A stretch of DNA of 64,000 nucleotides from Geobacillus thermocatenulatus. Lineage in GTDB: Bacteria > Bacillota > Bacilli > Bacillales > Anoxybacillaceae. Location: contig NZ_NEWK01000002.1 in the NCBI RefSeq assembly GCF_002217655.1, positions 1,117,164-1,181,163 on the forward strand, in the 5' to 3' direction. The notes beneath the pieces are model-generated. The model saw nothing but the letters and a program-made list of their open reading frames with translations, did not search any database and was not told where the DNA came from. Both the position numbers and the translations under genes were made by a program. Shown here in pieces: positions 45,484 to 56,499 of the stretch. How positions within the stretch are numbered: position 1 is the first letter of the stretch; each line of letters begins with the position of its first letter.

Positions 45484-45870
45484 GTTTACAGCCCCTTTCA
45501 TCAAGGTAAGGCGATATTTCTTCTACACTTCTCTTTCCATTCCTCCTCTTCCTTTTTTTAATATTGGCTCTTCATCACAAAATGCACTTGACAAAGAAAT
45601 ATGTTCATAATAAAGAAAATCAAAATAACGTTTTTCCTTTTTATACAATTTACCTCATTTGAGCAACATTACTTTCTTTTTTCACATATAAAGCAGCCGC
45701 CATGTTTCATATCCTACCCTACAATATGGTTCTGCAACAAAGAAACAAGTCATCAAGACTTTGTGAAAACTTTCTCATCAAAATATGACAATTTTTTGAA
45801 CAAACTTGCCGAACATTCGGAGAAAATGGACGAAATCTTGGCACATTTCCCCTATAAAATCTCTTTAGGC
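45484..45870. other. AT-rich region with no supported gene
   Basis: 387 bp, very AT-rich. An open frame with HQDFVKTFSSKYDNFLNKLA and EHSEKMDEILAHF runs to the edge of the 254-bp element at 45871, which may have cut a former gene. Not called. Confidence 0.35.
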
Positions 45871-49833: not shown

Positions 49834-50637
49834 CTACTTTCGCCCCCCTATCCCGTACAAGCGGCCGCCTTTTTGGCTGAGCACGTAATAGCCGATGACG
49901 AGCAGCATCGTAAACAAAAACAGAAGCGTCGACAATGCGTTGATCGACAAGGAAATGCCTTGGCGCGCCCGCGAATAAATTTCCACGGACAGCGTCGAGA
50001 ACCCATTTCCCGTGACAAAAAAGGTCACGGCAAAGTCATCGAGCGAATACGTGAGCGCCATGAAAAAGCCCGCCCATATGCTCGGAGCCAAAAACGGCAG
50101 CACCACACCGGACAGCACTTGCCAATGACTGGCTCCTAAATCTCTAGCCGCATCAATCAGCGTCGGGCTCATTTCTTCCAGTTTCGGCAGCACCATCAAC
50201 ACGACAATCGGCACGCTGAACGCGATATGAGACAACAGCACGGACGTAAAGCCGAGCTTGATGCCGGCTATCGTAAACAGAAGCAAAAACGAAGCGCCGA
50301 TGATGACATCGGGGCTGACGATCAGCACGTTGTTGAGGGCGAGAAGAGCGTTTTTCGTTCGCTGCCGCTTGACATAGTAAACGGCGAGCGCTCCGATGAC
50401 CCCAAGTATCGTCGCAACCGCCGCCGACAACAGTGCAATGACGATTGTATTCAAAACGATGATGAGCAAGCGGTCGTCGGACAGCACGTCGCGATACCAC
50501 TTCAACGTGAACGATTGAAAATCGTGCATCGCCCCGCCGCTGTTGAACGAATAATACATCAAATACACAATCGGCATATACATCACGGCAAACACGGCCA
50601 AAAGATACACCCGTCCCCACCTATGCGTCCGTTTCAT
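49834..50637 (-). CDS. potC: Spermidine/putrescine permease PotC
   Basis: 267 aa, six helices with the EAA loop [20 protein letters not shown]. Partner of PotB in the membrane channel. The ATG at 50637 overlaps the potB stop (ATGA). Confidence 0.93.
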   Translation of the reverse strand: MKRTHRWGRVYLLAVFAVMYMPIVYLMYYSFNSGGAMHDFQSFTLKWYRDVLSDDRLLIIVLNTIVIALLSAAVATILGVIGALAVYYVKRQRTKNALLALNNVLIVSPDVIIGASFLLLFTIAGIKLGFTSVLLSHIAFSVPIVVLMVLPKLEEMSPTLIDAARDLGASHWQVLSGVVLPFLAPSIWAGFFMALTYSLDDFAVTFFVTGNGFSTLSVEIYSRARQGISLSINALSTLLFLFTMLLVIGYYVLSQKGGRLYGIGGRK

Positions 50638-51443
50638 CGGCTTCCCTCTTTTCTTCCGCTTCCTGTCAGGACGACGATGACCGCCATCGCGATCATTAAC
50701 ACAACCGCGATCGTCGCCCCCATCCCCCAGTTTTGGGTGACAAGAAAATGCTGCTCAATGGCGGTGCCGAGCGTAATGACGCGGTTGCCAGCGACAAGGC
50801 GCGTAATCATAAACAGCGACAGCGCCGGGATGAATACCGCTTGGCAGCCGGCCTTCACTCCGCCAAGCGTGAGCGGGAAGACGACGCGGCGGAACGTTGT
50901 CCATGACGATGCCCCCAAATCGCGGGCGGCATCGACAAGCGACGGCGGCAATTCTTCAAGAGCATTGAAAATCGGCAGCACCATAAACGGAATAAAAATA
51001 TACACCGACACAAAGACAAAACTGAAATCGGTGAACAACAGCTGCCGCGGCCCGACGCCCAACACCTTCAAAAAAGCGTTGGCCAGCCCATACGTGCCGA
51101 ACAGCCCTAAAAACGCATACACCTTCAGCAGCAAATTCACCCACATCGGCAAGATGAGCAACAACAGCCATAACTGCTTGTGCCTCGTCTTTGTCAGCCA
51201 ATAGGCGGTCGGATAGCCGATGAGCAGCGACACAAGGGTAATCAAAAACGCGTACCAAAACGAATACGCCATCATTTTTAAATAAATGGGCGTCAACACC
51301 GCTTTGTAGTTGGACAACGTCCAACGGCCGTCGAGATCCAAAAACGATTCATACACCAAAAAGACAATCGGTGCCACGACAAACAGCACAAGCCAAATGC
51401 CATAAGGGATTAAATACCAGTTCCGCCACGTCCGTTCCGTCAT
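50634..51443 (-). CDS. potB: Spermidine/putrescine permease PotB
   Basis: 269 aa, six helices with the EAA loop [20 protein letters not shown]. Forms the polyamine channel with PotC. ATG 51443 overlaps the potA stop (ATGA). Confidence 0.93.
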
Positions 51444-52498
51444 GCGTCCTCATCCTCCTTTTCGAGTCGCATGACGTGAATCGCTTCCGGTTCAAAACGA
51501 AGGCCGACCGTTTCCCCGACTTCAGCCTTTTTCGTCGAATGGACAAGCCATTCGTTGCCGTTTTCGTCATAGCCGCAAATTTCATAATGGACACCGCGGA
51601 ATAAGAGCGAATCGACGCGGATGACGATCTGCCCATCTCCCGGCGCCGCGAGCTCCAAATCTTCCGGGCGGATGACGACATCGACCGGTTCGTTTGGTGC
51701 GAAGCCGCGGTCAACACATGCAAACTGTTTGCCGGCAAATTCGACGAGGAAATCGTCGATCATGCGCCCCGACAAAATGTTCGATTCCCCGATGAAATCG
51801 GCGACGAATCGGTTGATGGGCTCGTCGTAAATGTCTTTCGGCGTCCCAAACTGCTGAATTTTTCCTTTATTTAGAACAAAAATATAATCGGACATCGCCA
51901 GCGCTTCTTCTTGGTCATGCGTGACAAAAATGAACGTAATCCCTAAGCGGCGTTGCAGTTCGCGAAGTTCATACTGCATTTCCGTGCGCAATTTCAAATC
52001 CAAGGCTGACAGCGGTTCATCCAAGAGCAACACTTCTGGCTCATTCACAATCGCCCGCGCAATCGCGACGCGCTGACGCTGGCCGCCGGACATTTCTTGA
52101 ATGCGGCGGCGCTCATAGCCGTCTAAGTTGACAAATCGAAGCGCTTCCCTCACTTTCTCGCGAATGTCGGCTTCTTTCATCTTTTTCACGCGCAAACCAA
52201 ACGCGACGTTTTCAAACACATCGAGGTGAGGAAACAACGCATAGTCTTGAAAGACAGTGTTGACTTGCCGTTTGTTCGGCGGGACGTTTTGAATCGGCTT
52301 CCCGTGGAAATAAATCGTTCCTTGCGTTGGCTCGATAAACCCGGCAATCAGCCGCAAAATCGTCGTCTTCCCGCACCCCGACGGCCCAAGCAGCGTATAA
52401 AACTTTCCGCGCTCCATCGCAAAACTGACATCATCCAATACAGTCATGCCGTCATATTCCTTCGTCACGCGCTCGAAGCGGATGATTTCTCCGTTCAC
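51440..52498 (-). CDS. potA: Polyamine transporter ATPase PotA
   Basis: 352 aa. Walker [11 protein letters not shown], signature [12 protein letters not shown], Walker [12 protein letters not shown], then a TOBE-type regulatory domain from about residue 240. The GTG at 52498 follows GGGGGGCTGAAA. First gene of the operon. ATP hydrolysis drives polyamine uptake. Confidence 0.93.
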
Positions 52499-52620
52499 TT
52501 TCAGCCCCCCGTCTTCTTGATGTTCACTATTCCTAATTAGAACATAGGAGAGTGGAAAGTGCAACGGAAAAATCCTTGATCACATCTATGGAAACTGAAT
52601 TTTTCATAAAGATCCCGCTA

Positions 52621-53271
52621 TCATTTTTTCCTTTTGTCTTCATTGTTTGGACGTGTAAGCGAGATTATGCGGGAACCAGGGAAGCGCTCTTGATGAACGT
52701 GAGAAGCAATGAGATAAGCACCTTGACGGTCGCCTTGAATCCACTCCGCCAACCGATCGCGACTTAACCTATCAAGGGAATTGAACGGCTCATCCATCAA
52801 ATACAATTCGACCGGACGGGCTAAAGCAATCGCAATATGCAGTTTTTGCTTTGTTCCTAATGAATACTGATCCACCGGAAGCGAGAGCATTTCCTCCATT
52901 CCAAGCAGACTGCATAATTCGTTTGCTTTCCGGACGTACTGTTGATCCAGCTTCCATAAAAGCCGGAAACATTCGATATTTTCATAGCCCGTCAATTTTG
53001 AAAACATGACGGTCTCGGATGTCACATAAGACAAATGGGCTCGCATGTCGGGAAGCGGAATCGGATTGCCTTTATAAAAGGCTTGATAATGCAGCTCTCC
53101 TTTATCGAGCAATCCCGAAATAATGTGCAAAAGAGTCGTTTTCCCCACTCCATTGGGGCCGGTGAGAAGCACCGTCTCCCCTGGGAAAATGGAAAATGAG
53201 AATTGCTGAAAAATCGTGGTTCCCCCATCATAGCGATACGTCAAGTTTTGCAAAGTAAACAACGGTTCCAT
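52621..53271 (-). CDS. ABC ATPase of the circular-bacteriocin cluster
   Basis: 216 aa. Walker A LTGPNGVGKTT, signature YSLGTKQKL, Walker B LYLMDEPFNSL, switch His IASHVHQ. Short, with a KQKL-type signature, as in bacteriocin export/self-protection ATPases. The ATG at 53271 follows AAAAGGGGCGG. It is the last gene of the operon 55759-52621. With the SpoIIM-type protein it probably exports the peptide or contributes immunity. Confidence 0.88.
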   Translation of the reverse strand: MEPLFTLQNLTYRYDGGTTIFQQFSFSIFPGETVLLTGPNGVGKTTLLHIISGLLDKGELHYQAFYKGNPIPLPDMRAHLSYVTSETVMFSKLTGYENIECFRLLWKLDQQYVRKANELCSLLGMEEMLSLPVDQYSLGTKQKLHIAIALARPVELYLMDEPFNSLDRLSRDRLAEWIQGDRQGAYLIASHVHQERFPGSRIISLTRPNNEDKRKK

Positions 53272-53319
53272 CTGTTCCGCCCCTTTTTATAACTTCTCTA
53301 TTTTTCGGTCCGTTTCTTG

Positions 53320-53829
53320 TCACACGTGAGAGACCTTTGATTCCAGCCATGCAGAGATGACCAGCAACACGACCGCCAGCACTAGCAACAAGAGAATATC
53401 CCGTATATAGAGCGTTTCTTCTTCTCCCCTTGCTCTTTTTTTGATGATTTGAAGAAACCTCCACGTCTCGTACCCTAATGTACAAAACAAGACATGGCCG
53501 ATGATTTCAGGAACGGCGTGGGGAACAACACCGGTAATTAACGGCTGCATGCCATACCCCTTCATGACTCCTTTCACGATCACTCCGAACATTGCCGCAT
53601 TATAGGCCAGATAAAGGGTATTGGCCATTCCTAACGTCAGCCATCCGCCGACCATCAAAATGGCTCCAACGAGCAAGTTGTGTCCGAAAGTGGTTCCAAA
53701 TTCCATAGAGGTTGGGTGGATGGCAAGCCGTTGTGAAAAAATCCCTGCTCCCAACGCAAAGCAGACAACATATACACCGAACGACAAGAGAAAATATGGA
53801 AAATGAGTGTAAATGGCTCGTTTGATCAT
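53320..53829 (-). CDS. SpoIIM/DUF95-family membrane protein of the bacteriocin cluster
   Basis: 169 aa with five helices. The DUF95 hallmark PHAVPEIIGHVLFCTLGYE and TLYLAYNAAMFGVIVKGVM are present. DUF95 proteins are a fixed part of circular-bacteriocin loci such as AS-48, circularin A and uberolysin, where they act in secretion or maturation. The ATG at 53829 follows GAGGAGG; the upstream gene stop is 14 bp before. Confidence 0.85.
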   Translation of the reverse strand: MIKRAIYTHFPYFLLSFGVYVVCFALGAGIFSQRLAIHPTSMEFGTTFGHNLLVGAILMVGGWLTLGMANTLYLAYNAAMFGVIVKGVMKGYGMQPLITGVVPHAVPEIIGHVLFCTLGYETWRFLQIIKKRARGEEETLYIRDILLLLVLAVVLLVISAWLESKVSHV

Positions 53830-53842
53830 CGCGAATGCCTCC

Positions 53843-55462
53843 TCATGTACGCTGAGCATATTGAGAACCATTCCATAATACAAGGTAAATCATCACAACA
53901 AACAAAACGCTGTAGCATGCCCAACTCCAACCTTTCAAGAGCATAAAAAAGGCAGAAAGAAGCGATGAAAAAACAGTTATGTAAATCAATAAGCGATGAA
54001 ACGAATGATTTCCGGCCGCAATCACCATATACCCTGCATAATCACGCGGAGATGTCAACACCGTTTGCTCACCGCTCGCTAAAACAAGGCAGAACACTTC
54101 ATAATCGGTGCGCAAAATCCGTTTGACAACAAGCGAATAGGCAGGCATCATCATCACAGCTCCCATTGCTGCCCAAAGCCCTCCACGCATCCCCAATAAT
54201 CCTATGTATTCGAGGAGAAGCAATCCTACTGCCGTCATGCATGGGTAGACGCCTAATCGTTCAAGCAACGTCCATTTCGCTTCGATTAACGGCACAAGAG
54301 GAGGCGGGGAAAGGAGGCGAAACACGGTGAGACGCTCCATCTCGCTTTCAAACTGAAAAATGTCCCGAAAGACGTCGGTAATGGCTCGCAACGCCCCTGT
54401 CATGACGATATACATTTCAAACATAAACAAAAACAAAATGATCGACCCGTTATGAACGATCGGCAACAGCGCCACATTCGCTCCTGCGACCAAAAACCAT
54501 TCCCCCGGCAAAAATAGCGACCAAGGCGGTTTCGTCAACTCACGGACTGGGCGTGTGAACAGACAAAGATCTTTATATAAAATTGCATTATTGGTGCCGC
54601 GAACTTTTAACGACTCTATGACACGTTGATACCATGAATATAGTCTGTACGCCGCCTTGTGAGAATGAGACGGGCGAATGAAAGAAAAGCAAATTAAAGC
54701 CAACAGAGCGAATCCAGCACCGATGAATGATAAACTCGTACTTGAAAATGACCATCCTCCCCAGCTAGTCATGCACTCATAAAACCGTTGCTGCCAGTGG
54801 ACAGCATAACCATCCATATACGCCAGATAAGAAAGAGACAGCCCATACATCCGAACCGCTTGGCGGGACAATTGCAGCAGCGGCACAATCGCCGCCATCA
54901 CGGCATAGCCTATCGCGAATGATGCCATTCGAAAGAAAACGGCAGAAAATACGCCCGTCGCTCTAACAGTTGAGCCACGCACTATATGCGATATTACATA
55001 AAGAAGAAGCAACATCGTTTGTCCAAACCATACGAATGATGCGCCTGTCATCATCCCAAACATCACCATCAATCCAATTGAAGGCGGCAACCAAATCGGC
55101 AATAGCCGCAGAAGAGACACAGCGTAGTGGATTTTGAGCAACCGCTGCCACACCTCATCATCCCGCACCCCAGACAGACGCACATAATGATAATGGTATT
55201 GACGTTGCAATGCCTCTTTGGACTCAAGCAAAACTCCTATGAAAGGGCTGACCGACATGAAAAAAAGAGCTCCCATAACCACAGAAGGGCGAAACAGCGT
55301 CGAGGATCGAGCGCAAAGGGCTACAACCACAGCCGATGAAACAAGCCATTTCGCCGCTTCCACCAAGAACATGGTCATCTGCGGGGAAAAAGGCGATTTT
55401 TTCTGCAACGGCGCCAAACTGCTTCGTTGTCTTTGTTGATACAGCAACCATACAAGCTTCAT
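53843..55462 (-). CDS. Large membrane protein, circular-bacteriocin maturation (CirB-like)
   Basis: 539 aa with about eleven helices; no recognised catalytic motif. In circular-bacteriocin loci a protein of this size (AS-48B, CirB, UblB) follows the structural gene and is needed for leader removal, cyclisation or secretion. The ATG at 55462 is chosen for GGGGGGAGAGAA upstream. Located between the structural gene and the DUF95 gene in the same direction, as expected. Confidence 0.75.
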   Translation of the reverse strand: MKLVWLLYQQRQRSSLAPLQKKSPFSPQMTMFLVEAAKWLVSSAVVVALCARSSTLFRPSVVMGALFFMSVSPFIGVLLESKEALQRQYHYHYVRLSGVRDDEVWQRLLKIHYAVSLLRLLPIWLPPSIGLMVMFGMMTGASFVWFGQTMLLLLYVISHIVRGSTVRATGVFSAVFFRMASFAIGYAVMAAIVPLLQLSRQAVRMYGLSLSYLAYMDGYAVHWQQRFYECMTSWGGWSFSSTSLSFIGAGFALLALICFSFIRPSHSHKAAYRLYSWYQRVIESLKVRGTNNAILYKDLCLFTRPVRELTKPPWSLFLPGEWFLVAGANVALLPIVHNGSIILFLFMFEMYIVMTGALRAITDVFRDIFQFESEMERLTVFRLLSPPPLVPLIEAKWTLLERLGVYPCMTAVGLLLLEYIGLLGMRGGLWAAMGAVMMMPAYSLVVKRILRTDYEVFCLVLASGEQTVLTSPRDYAGYMVIAAGNHSFHRLLIYITVFSSLLSAFFMLLKGWSWACYSVLFVVMIYLVLWNGSQYAQRT

Positions 55463-55493
55463 TTCTCTCCCCCCTTGCATTGAACTCATTAGG

Positions 55494-55522
55494 AACGGCA
55501 GGGGAGTCTTTCCCCTGCCGTT
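55494..55522 (-). terminator. Hairpin after the bacteriocin structural gene
   Basis: AACGGCAGGGG-loop-CCCCTGCCGTT (11-bp stem). On the minus strand no T-run follows, so it probably limits read-through or stabilises the structural-gene mRNA, giving more precursor than maturation protein. Confidence 0.65.
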
Positions 55523-55528
55523 TTCCCT

Positions 55529-55759
55529 TTACCATGCAATCGCTGCCGCTTTTCCTCGTTCCGCCACTATTTTTTTCACCGTCGCGACAAAAGCTGACCA
55601 CCCAATTTCCAAAATGGCGTCGACTCCACCTGACAAAATAGCGGTGATCCCAAGAATAATAGAAATAAGCGTGGAGCCGGTCAGCACAATCGAAACAACC
55701 GTCGTCGCGACTGCCTGCGACACGCCGAGCGTCCCGGCAACAAGCGCCAACAAACTCAT
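55529..55759 (-). CDS. Circular bacteriocin precursor (AS-48/circularin A-like)
   Basis: 76 aa. A very short leader (MSLLA or MSLLAL) precedes VAGTLGVSQAVATTVVSIVL, and the tail reads FVATVKKIVAERGKAAAIAW. The VAG.LG start, long Gly/Ala hydrophobic helices, a basic helix (VKKIVAERGK) and the terminal AIAW closely follow circularin A, uberolysin and AS-48. The mature ring would have about 70 residues, joined from Val7 or Leu6 to Trp76. The ATG at 55759 follows AAGGTGATAGG. It probably disrupts membranes of related Gram-positives. Confidence 0.85.
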   Translation of the reverse strand: MSLLALVAGTLGVSQAVATTVVSIVLTGSTLISIILGITAILSGGVDAILEIGWSAFVATVKKIVAERGKAAAIAW

Positions 55760-55822
55760 AACCTATCACCTTCTTCCAGTAAATGATAATCGATCAAAAC
55801 TTTTTTCAAAAACATTCTGCGT

Positions 55823-56047
55823 CTATCTCATCCTTCGCACTAAACGAGAATAAACTCCCCCGTAAAGCAACACCAATACAATCAACCCTATTTTGATGGG
55901 CATGCTGGCCGCTTTTAGGCGAAAAGCAAGTACAATCAACACGACAAGCGGCAGGCTAATCAGAATAAAATACGGCCACGACCATTGTCTCACCCATTTC
56001 ACTCCCGTCTGTGATGCGGTTTCTAGTAAATTCCTTGTTAATATCAT
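55823..56047 (-). CDS. Small basic two-TM protein, candidate bacteriocin immunity
   Basis: 74 aa: WSWPYFILISLPLVVLIVLA and MPIKIGLIVLVLLYGGVY are helices; the tail RLVRRMR is basic. Circular-bacteriocin immunity proteins are small, basic and hydrophobic with one or two helices. It lies 63 bp upstream of the structural gene in the same direction. The start is uncertain: ATG 56047 lacks a good Shine-Dalgarno. Confidence 0.6.
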   Translation of the reverse strand: MILTRNLLETASQTGVKWVRQWSWPYFILISLPLVVLIVLAFRLKAASMPIKIGLIVLVLLYGGVYSRLVRRMR

Positions 56048-56360
56048 CCATTTTAATCATACACCTTGACTCTAAAAAAAAAAGAGAAATCGTTCGACAA
56101 TTTTATCTTTTTTTTAACACATTTCGACATATTTCGCTCTATCGGAATGAAACAGAGATGCTGTTAAGAGCTTTGTGCAAGGACAAGGGAGGAGATGCAA
56201 TGGTTCATTTTTTATTCAATTTTGCCCGCAAGGCGGAAATCCGCTGTCTCATTGATCGTTTTTTCAAATTTCCTTGCTTCACCGTATTGAATAATTTCGA
56301 AAAATACATTAAATTATATAGTAATCATCAAGACAAAATGAACAACTGCATACGGACATT
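56048..56360. other. Divergent region between the bacteriocin cluster and the SAM riboswitch
   Basis: 313 bp, AT-rich. The poly-A/T run near 56085 and TTGTCG...TATGAT suggest promoter parts for the bacteriocin cluster, but spacing is poor. A frame at about 56200-56390 overlaps the riboswitch and is not called. Confidence 0.35.
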
Positions 56361-56499
56361 CTTATCAAGAGAGGGGGAGGGACTGGCCCGGTGAACCCTC
56401 AGCAACCTGGCCGCGGCCAAGGTGCTAAATCCAGACAGGCAACAGCCTGGAAGATAAGAAGAAGCGAATGAAAAGTCTTCTTCTTAGAAGGCTTTTTTC
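56361..56499 (+). ncRNA. SAM-I (S-box) riboswitch with terminator
   Basis: CTTATCAAGAG...GAAGATAAG closes the aptamer. The core AGAGGGGGAGGGACTGGCCC, GAACCCTCAGCAACC and GTGCTAAATCCAGACAGGCA match the S-box consensus. A terminator AGTCTTCTTCTTAGAAGGCT + TTTTTTC follows at 56474-56499. High SAM should stop transcription of yitJ-metH. Confidence 0.93.

Follow-up and report, generated by a model that had tools for sequence, protein, structure and literature searches.

A probable circular-bacteriocin operon with a strongly constrained precursor and upstream Spo0A-type boxes in Geobacillus thermocatenulatus

In a 64,000-nucleotide stretch of Geobacillus thermocatenulatus DNA (assembly GCF_002217655.1, contig NZ_NEWK01000002.1; hereafter the window), from a two-contig genome of 3.56 Mb, five open reading frames (ORFs), which we name I, A, B, C and D in 5' to 3' order, lie together on the minus strand from 56047 to 52621. 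Family models, a gap-free alignment with enterocin AS-48 and the gene content support the reading that I-A-B-C-D is a compact operon for the biosynthesis of a membrane-active circular bacteriocin in the AS-48-like circularin A/uberolysin family, and we consider this very probable. An earlier note, made from the DNA letters, had proposed a circular-bacteriocin cluster of five genes on one strand; the same evidence supports that proposal, and all five genes are present where the note placed them. Its strand and stop ends held, while likelier start codons were found for B, C and possibly I. The five genes are:

55529..55759, minus strand: A, predicted 76-residue circular bacteriocin precursor (PF09221 and TIGR03651)
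55823..56047, minus strand: I, putative immunity protein, small and basic, with two transmembrane-like segments (charge, hydropathy, diverged copies)
53843..55462, minus strand: B, 539-residue membrane protein, putative maturation/export component (10 hydrophobic segments by simple hydropathy)
53320..53829, minus strand: C, SpoIIM/DUF95 membrane protein, 169 residues (PF01944, 63.3 bits; cut-off 26.9)
52621..53271, minus strand: D, ATP-binding cassette (ABC)-type ATPase, 216 residues (PF00005, 89.1 bits; cut-off 25)

The precursor and its neighbouring genes

Protein A scored far above the cut-offs of PF09221 (84.2 bits; cut-off 23.6) and of the circularin A/uberolysin model TIGR03651 (90.1 bits; cut-off 30.7). 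Its top match among solved structures was AS-48 (E 8e-7), residues 3-70 of which pair with residues 9-76 of A with zero gaps, so that the AS-48/circularin A hallmarks noticed earlier in a 76-residue precursor were confirmed. Because the alignment is gap-free, it suggests that the ring has 70 residues and runs from V7 to W76, preceded by the leader MSLLAL; this fits the 70-71 residues expected beforehand, with homology to AS-48 favouring 70. The computed average mass of the core is 6921.12 Da in linear form and 6903.11 Da as a ring (18 lower). Both ends to be joined are hydrophobic, cysteine is absent, and K62, K63, R68 and K70 form a basic patch; the excerpted text of PMC7132975 names hydrophobic joining-end residues, lack of a cysteine pair and a basic patch as features of circular bacteriocins.

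The neighbouring genes matched the large membrane protein, DUF95/SpoIIM protein, ATPase and small basic transmembrane protein listed in the earlier note, as judged by hydropathy for B and I and by PF01944 and PF00005 for C and D. As a criterion for a circular bacteriocin, the available part of PMC8534725 gives a SpoIIM/DUF95 protein and an ATP-binding protein adjoining the precursor, and C and D were found to adjoin A in this way. D carries the Walker A sequence GPNGVGKTT, and the large multi-spanning membrane protein of the cluster is B. Searches of Pfam, NCBIfam and PHROGs gave no match for B at E values up to 1, a point against the operon reading. Start codons of B, C and I were corrected by eye from upstream sequence and relatives. 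Position 55462 (539 residues) is the more likely start of B rather than 55489, and 53829 (169 residues) that of C rather than 53883. Protein I would have 74 residues from ATG 56047 or 56 residues from GTG 55993, and the latter start is more likely because diverged copies begin near the position of residue 20. The 56-residue form contains eight lysines and arginines and two hydrophobic segments, and in size, charge and hydrophobic segments I fits a small immunity protein; yet acidic residues (D+E) number zero in this form.

Elsewhere, a distant relative of B (80.8 bits) was seen in genome G245 (L092, C1:1512661-1513701), where it adjoins an ATPase-like ORF and an ORF for a 55-residue membrane-like protein, with no SpoIIM-like ORF seen beside it. 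A PF09221 search of G245 gave a match only away from this locus, which is possibly a precursor type that escapes detection, or an immunity remnant.

Constraint on A and decay of the cluster

Comparison of the window with a copy of the cluster from a second lineage (G030, Anoxybacillus amylolyticus plasmid pDSM15939_2) gave a protein identity of 96% for A, against 55% for B, 65% for C, 69% for D and 52% for the aligned part of I. Substitutions between this genome (G000) and G030 were counted by the Nei-Gojobori method with our own script. Nonsynonymous changes per site amounted to 4/165 in A, 38/115 in I, 338/1,220 in B, 72/383 in C and 100/478 in D (dN of 0.025, 0.437, 0.346, 0.216 and 0.245, respectively), and synonymous change was near saturation in all five genes (pS 0.65-0.77; 0.65-0.70 in A). 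In Fisher tests, A differed from the other genes at nonsynonymous sites (P <=2.5e-8) and not at synonymous sites (P >=0.35). A is thus under strong constraint between the two lineages. A recent swap of A as the source of its 96% identity is excluded, because its synonymous sites are as changed as those of I, B, C and D.

PF09221 matches were present in 25 of 397 Bacillales genomes, that is, in 22 apart from G000, G006 and G012, and 18 of these 22 loci were taken for comparison; eight pairs among nine of the 18 were used to compare cores. In L070-L071 and L070-L073 the core was 92% identical, while the other ORFs compared reached 26-56%, so a frozen toxin is not unique to this cluster. A weaker excess of core conservation over most neighbours was seen in L071-L073, L076-L079 and L076-L077; among L074, L075 and L078 there was none. 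The frozen-core pattern therefore recurs among circular-bacteriocin loci, although not everywhere. Along the same lines, the accessible text of PMC5100339 describes a core in B. coagulans identical to that of amylocyclicin with a different leader. Our literature search found no paper joining circular bacteriocins with purifying selection. The contrast between the near-constant A and its fast-changing partners suggests that the target or fold, and not immunity, sets the sequence of A.

An alternative explanation for the lack of diversification is that A acts mainly as a signal or self-directed (cannibal) peptide and not as an interspecies weapon, in keeping with a frozen A beside a drifting I and machinery and with the sporulation-type boxes upstream of the operon that are described below. 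We think this improbable: in L070-L071 and L070-L073 the core is equally frozen without such boxes, and since these amylocyclicin-type pairs show the pattern without them, a fold or target constraint suffices to explain a frozen A.

The cluster was patchily distributed among 14 genomes of the genus, our own included, with A in four and I in five of them. A potA-like gene was found in 12 of the 14 (all except G001 and G003), and the neighbouring site was read in those 12. The cluster lies at this potA-metH site in three (G000, G005 and G006), and G011 has kept I and D there and lost A, B and C. In the other eight, no match to the cluster was detected at the site (blastn, E 1e-3), and the flanking genes are 387 nt (G013), 389 nt (G002) or, in the other six, 761-939 nt apart. 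The flanks lie outside the cluster:

49834..52564, minus strand: potABC-like ABC transporter genes (ATPase and permease families), left flank
56359..56460, plus strand: S-adenosylmethionine (SAM) riboswitch of a divergent metH-type operon (RF00162, 91.5 bits), right flank

Ahead of this riboswitch, positions 56220-56260 of the window encode FIQFCPQ.., which resembles the 3' end of a small zinc-ribbon ORF; the ORF is complete at the same site in G009, and the window sequence looks like its remnant. An element of about 150 bp with inverted GGCTCTTCACCA ends sits between I and D in G011 (L062), and the same element (99.4% over 164 bases) lies between C and D in G005 (L007). Pieces of it match upstream of I in G006 (L011 8435-8568), and window positions 45564-45594 match it over 31 bases at 90%; a search for its exact ends, with three mismatches allowed, found none within the window.

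The gene order I-A-B-C-D was found again in six other genomes, and this recurrence together with the constraint on A rules out chance or mis-called ORFs. In the second lineage (G012, G030, G036 and contig L045) the same order occupies a different genomic place. The G012 and G030 segments are 99.6% identical over 3,569 bp, and comparison of 17-18 kb around them gave no further match at E 1e-10. Such a long match without any other beside it points to a recent move of the cluster between plasmid and Geobacillus chromosome. On pDSM15939_2 (L047) the cluster is near the cell-wall genes murF, D-alanine ligase and a MurG-type transferase. This plasmid was the one related record (96%) in a plasmid search, whereas genome contigs yielded three related loci, and none of 62 pattern matches in viral contigs was a relative.

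Eight copies of the cluster were read (G000, G005, G006, G011, G012, G030, G036 and L045), and three of them are broken. In G006, where the copy is split over two contigs, A is startless, with an in-frame stop directly ahead of the core and no start codon between; G012 carries a frameshift in B; and G011 lacks A, B and C. This decay argues against an active system, because it implies that the cluster is dispensable and could be silent in this strain too. That it is a decaying or silent relic here nevertheless seems unlikely to us: none of the five frames is interrupted in the window, ribosome-binding-like sites were seen by eye ahead of A, B, C and D, and A is strongly constrained between lineages. 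The orphan I and D of G011 are not by themselves a sign of selection, since the segment seems to have been shared recently with G005: the DNA of I is identical between the two and D differs by 0.3%, whereas metH differs by 4.9%. Selection for orphan I and D was accordingly not supported.

Described relatives

The cluster is an added member of an already known kind of circular-bacteriocin system, with an unusual regulatory reading. Circularin A and uberolysin fall under the same family model as A (TIGR03651), and their leaders are presumably very short as well. Enterocin AS-48 shares the 70-residue core; its leader of 35 residues is unlike that of A, and its cluster differs in having two ABC transporters and ten genes and in being plasmid-borne. 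Clusters of the type of L070, L071 and L073, which we take to be amylocyclicin-type, resemble the window in Pfam family, frozen core and fast-changing machinery; unlike it, they have a long leader, and no sequence homology was detected between their B and ours. According to the part of PMC7132975 available, AS-48 also has a SpoIIM-type protein and an ATPase, as in the window, and its Table 1 assigns circularin A and uberolysin larger clusters, of 8 and 6 genes.

The suggestion that the peptide may not have been described stood in part. The peptide strings sought were not found in the papers searched (figures and most supplements lie outside the text), while many Geobacillus circular peptides have been predicted and the 96% identical A of pDSM15939_2 is annotated as 'uberolysin/carnocyclin family circular bacteriocin'. 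In its excerpted form, PMC6160750 (Egan 2018) reports 31 circular peptides predicted in 29 Geobacillus genomes, in six cluster layouts, among them the Circular (a) type 1 clusters, which like the window have a structural gene, a modification gene and two transporter genes. The table in that excerpt enters G. icigianus G1w1 (G006, NZ_JPYA01000083.1) as without bacteriocin, whereas we found the start-less copy of A there; on promoters and on rates of change the excerpt is silent.

Thermocin 458 of Geobacillus stearothermophilus DSM 458 is like the window system in genus, 70-residue ring and circularin-like precursor, the latter with 46% identity to circularin A (PMC5658498). It is probably a close relative of A, judging by listed mass and length and not by letters: Table 1 of the PMC7132975 excerpt gives 70 residues and 6933.25 Da, 30.1 Da more than the 6903.11 Da of the window ring, with the masses of that source taken as listed. 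None of five rings that we computed equals 6933.25 Da. Identity of the two peptides is not supported at a mass difference of this size, and the window ring probably differs from thermocin 458 by at least one substitution; as a guess, the two changes seen in G005, A16S and V17I, would explain the gap. Another genome of the genus (G008) encodes a distinct circular peptide that resembles AS-48 and has a longer N-terminal part (L083, C1:539632-539832), with large-membrane, SpoIIM-like and ATPase-like ORFs, labelled by eye, downstream.

Upstream boxes, hairpin and proposed mechanism

Upstream of I and between A and B, four further features were seen:

56123..56129, minus strand: Spo0A-type box 1, TGTCGAA, exact core motif
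56093..56099, minus strand: Spo0A-type box 2, TGTCGAA, exact, 30 nt after box 1
56056..56061, minus strand: TATGAT, possible -10 element, by eye; a clear -35 element was not seen
55495..55521, minus strand: 11-bp mRNA hairpin between A and B (folding z -3.29; -2.68 to -3.91 in four relatives)

TGTCGAA is the core Spo0A box (PMC3485338, as excerpted), and 31 nt separate the end of box 2 from TATGAT, in place of which G005, G036 and G012 have TATAAT. The exact pair at 30-nt spacing occurs once in the genome and the reversed-pattern control not at all; for exact same-strand pairs with gaps of 3-33 nt, there were four in the genome and one in the control. At least one exact box is kept in five of seven copies compared (L045, with 69 nt of upstream DNA only, was set aside): two in G000, one plus a single-change box in G005, two at 27 nt in G011, one in G006, and, in the Anoxybacillus copy G036, one together with TGTCGAG 30 nt away. 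When the window is compared with G036, the boxes agree in 13/14 bases and the intervening DNA in 9/23, a conservation matched by 0 of 200,000 plain letter shuffles, with the boxes chosen after being seen. Spo0A is encoded in this genome, where eight genes with the AbrB-type domain PF04014 served as a positive control. One of them, which we take to be abrB-like, has TGTCGAA and TGACGAA, 10 nt apart, immediately upstream; in two others a lone box lies further off, and the remaining five lack one. Because Spo0A is present and the abrB-like gene has an upstream box pair, this host probably makes use of the motif. Another AT-rich pair of exact boxes, with a spacing of 27 nt, is present at L097 of the same genome (C2:226235-226268), close to the ORF of a 132-residue protein with a signal-like N-terminus.

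Several results weigh against control by Spo0A. The box pair was noticed post hoc. Single boxes in the window are not in excess (11 against 12.3 expected), nor are pairs with two mismatches allowed (1 against 0.90). None of the three other pairs in the genome could be linked to an established Spo0A target, and one of them is internal to a long coding frame. G005, G006 and G036 have an imperfect box 2, G012 and G030 have neither box, and the conservation between the window and G036 extends beyond the boxes (19/40 before, 8/9 after). These points favour a rival in which the cluster is the same but Spo0A does not use the boxes, expression being constitutive or set by another regulator, for instance AbrB acting on the AT-rich stretch: A remains intact in G012 and G030 despite the missing boxes, and single boxes and two-mismatch pairs occur at chance frequency. 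On the other hand, the exact 30-nt pair is unique in the genome, both boxes are conspicuous when the window is set against G036, and 17 of the 18 other Bacillales loci, used as a negative control, have no exact box up to 900 nt before A, although their promoters may lie further off or elsewhere (one locus has one box, the reach was 474 nt in L081, and L070, L071 and L073 are among those without). We give this rival close to an even chance. Direct activation of the operon by Spo0A, with the peptide made at the onset of sporulation, is plausible, at about that chance or somewhat less. In the literature co-mentioning circular bacteriocins and Spo0A, neither term stood in any title or abstract.

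In both lineages the A-B intergenic segment forms a hairpin of 11-12 bp with differing stem letters, and the z-scores of the five copies folded, out of seven, were -3.29, -3.91, -3.38, -2.68 and -3.23. Counting of paired cells neither supported nor contradicted the structure, with 65.7% paired in true register and 72.9% after a three-column slide; the slid structure scores higher because the alignment fails to bring the two lineages into register. Judged from folding, the hairpin may be a processing or partial stop signal that holds toxin mRNA above the mRNA of the machinery genes.

Taken together, we propose that the leader MSLLAL would be removed and V7 joined to W76 to give a 70-residue ring of 6903.1 Da (average mass). 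Joining and export would be performed or enabled by B together with C and D, with D supplying the energy, and I would protect the producer; the hairpin may keep toxin mRNA in excess. With less confidence, we suggest that transcription from one promoter upstream of I may be switched by phosphorylated Spo0A, so that the peptide would be made as sporulation begins. The skf and sdp genes are sporulation-coupled killing counterparts, in whose place a circular-bacteriocin operon would stand. That this cluster is such a Spo0A-switched killing system of thermophiles, in which the toxin stays frozen and the immunity and maturation genes drift fast, is a tentative possibility that we hold to be somewhat doubtful.

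The predicted ring belongs to a family known for heat and protease resistance and comes from a thermophile, which makes it a sensible candidate against Geobacillus spoilage. The G011 copy, with I and D only, offers a natural test of which genes confer immunity. A has hardly changed, whereas the maturation proteins and the presumed immunity protein evolve about 9-17 times faster at the protein level (dN ratios). If Spo0A does drive the operon, circular bacteriocins would join the toxins released as sporulation starts.

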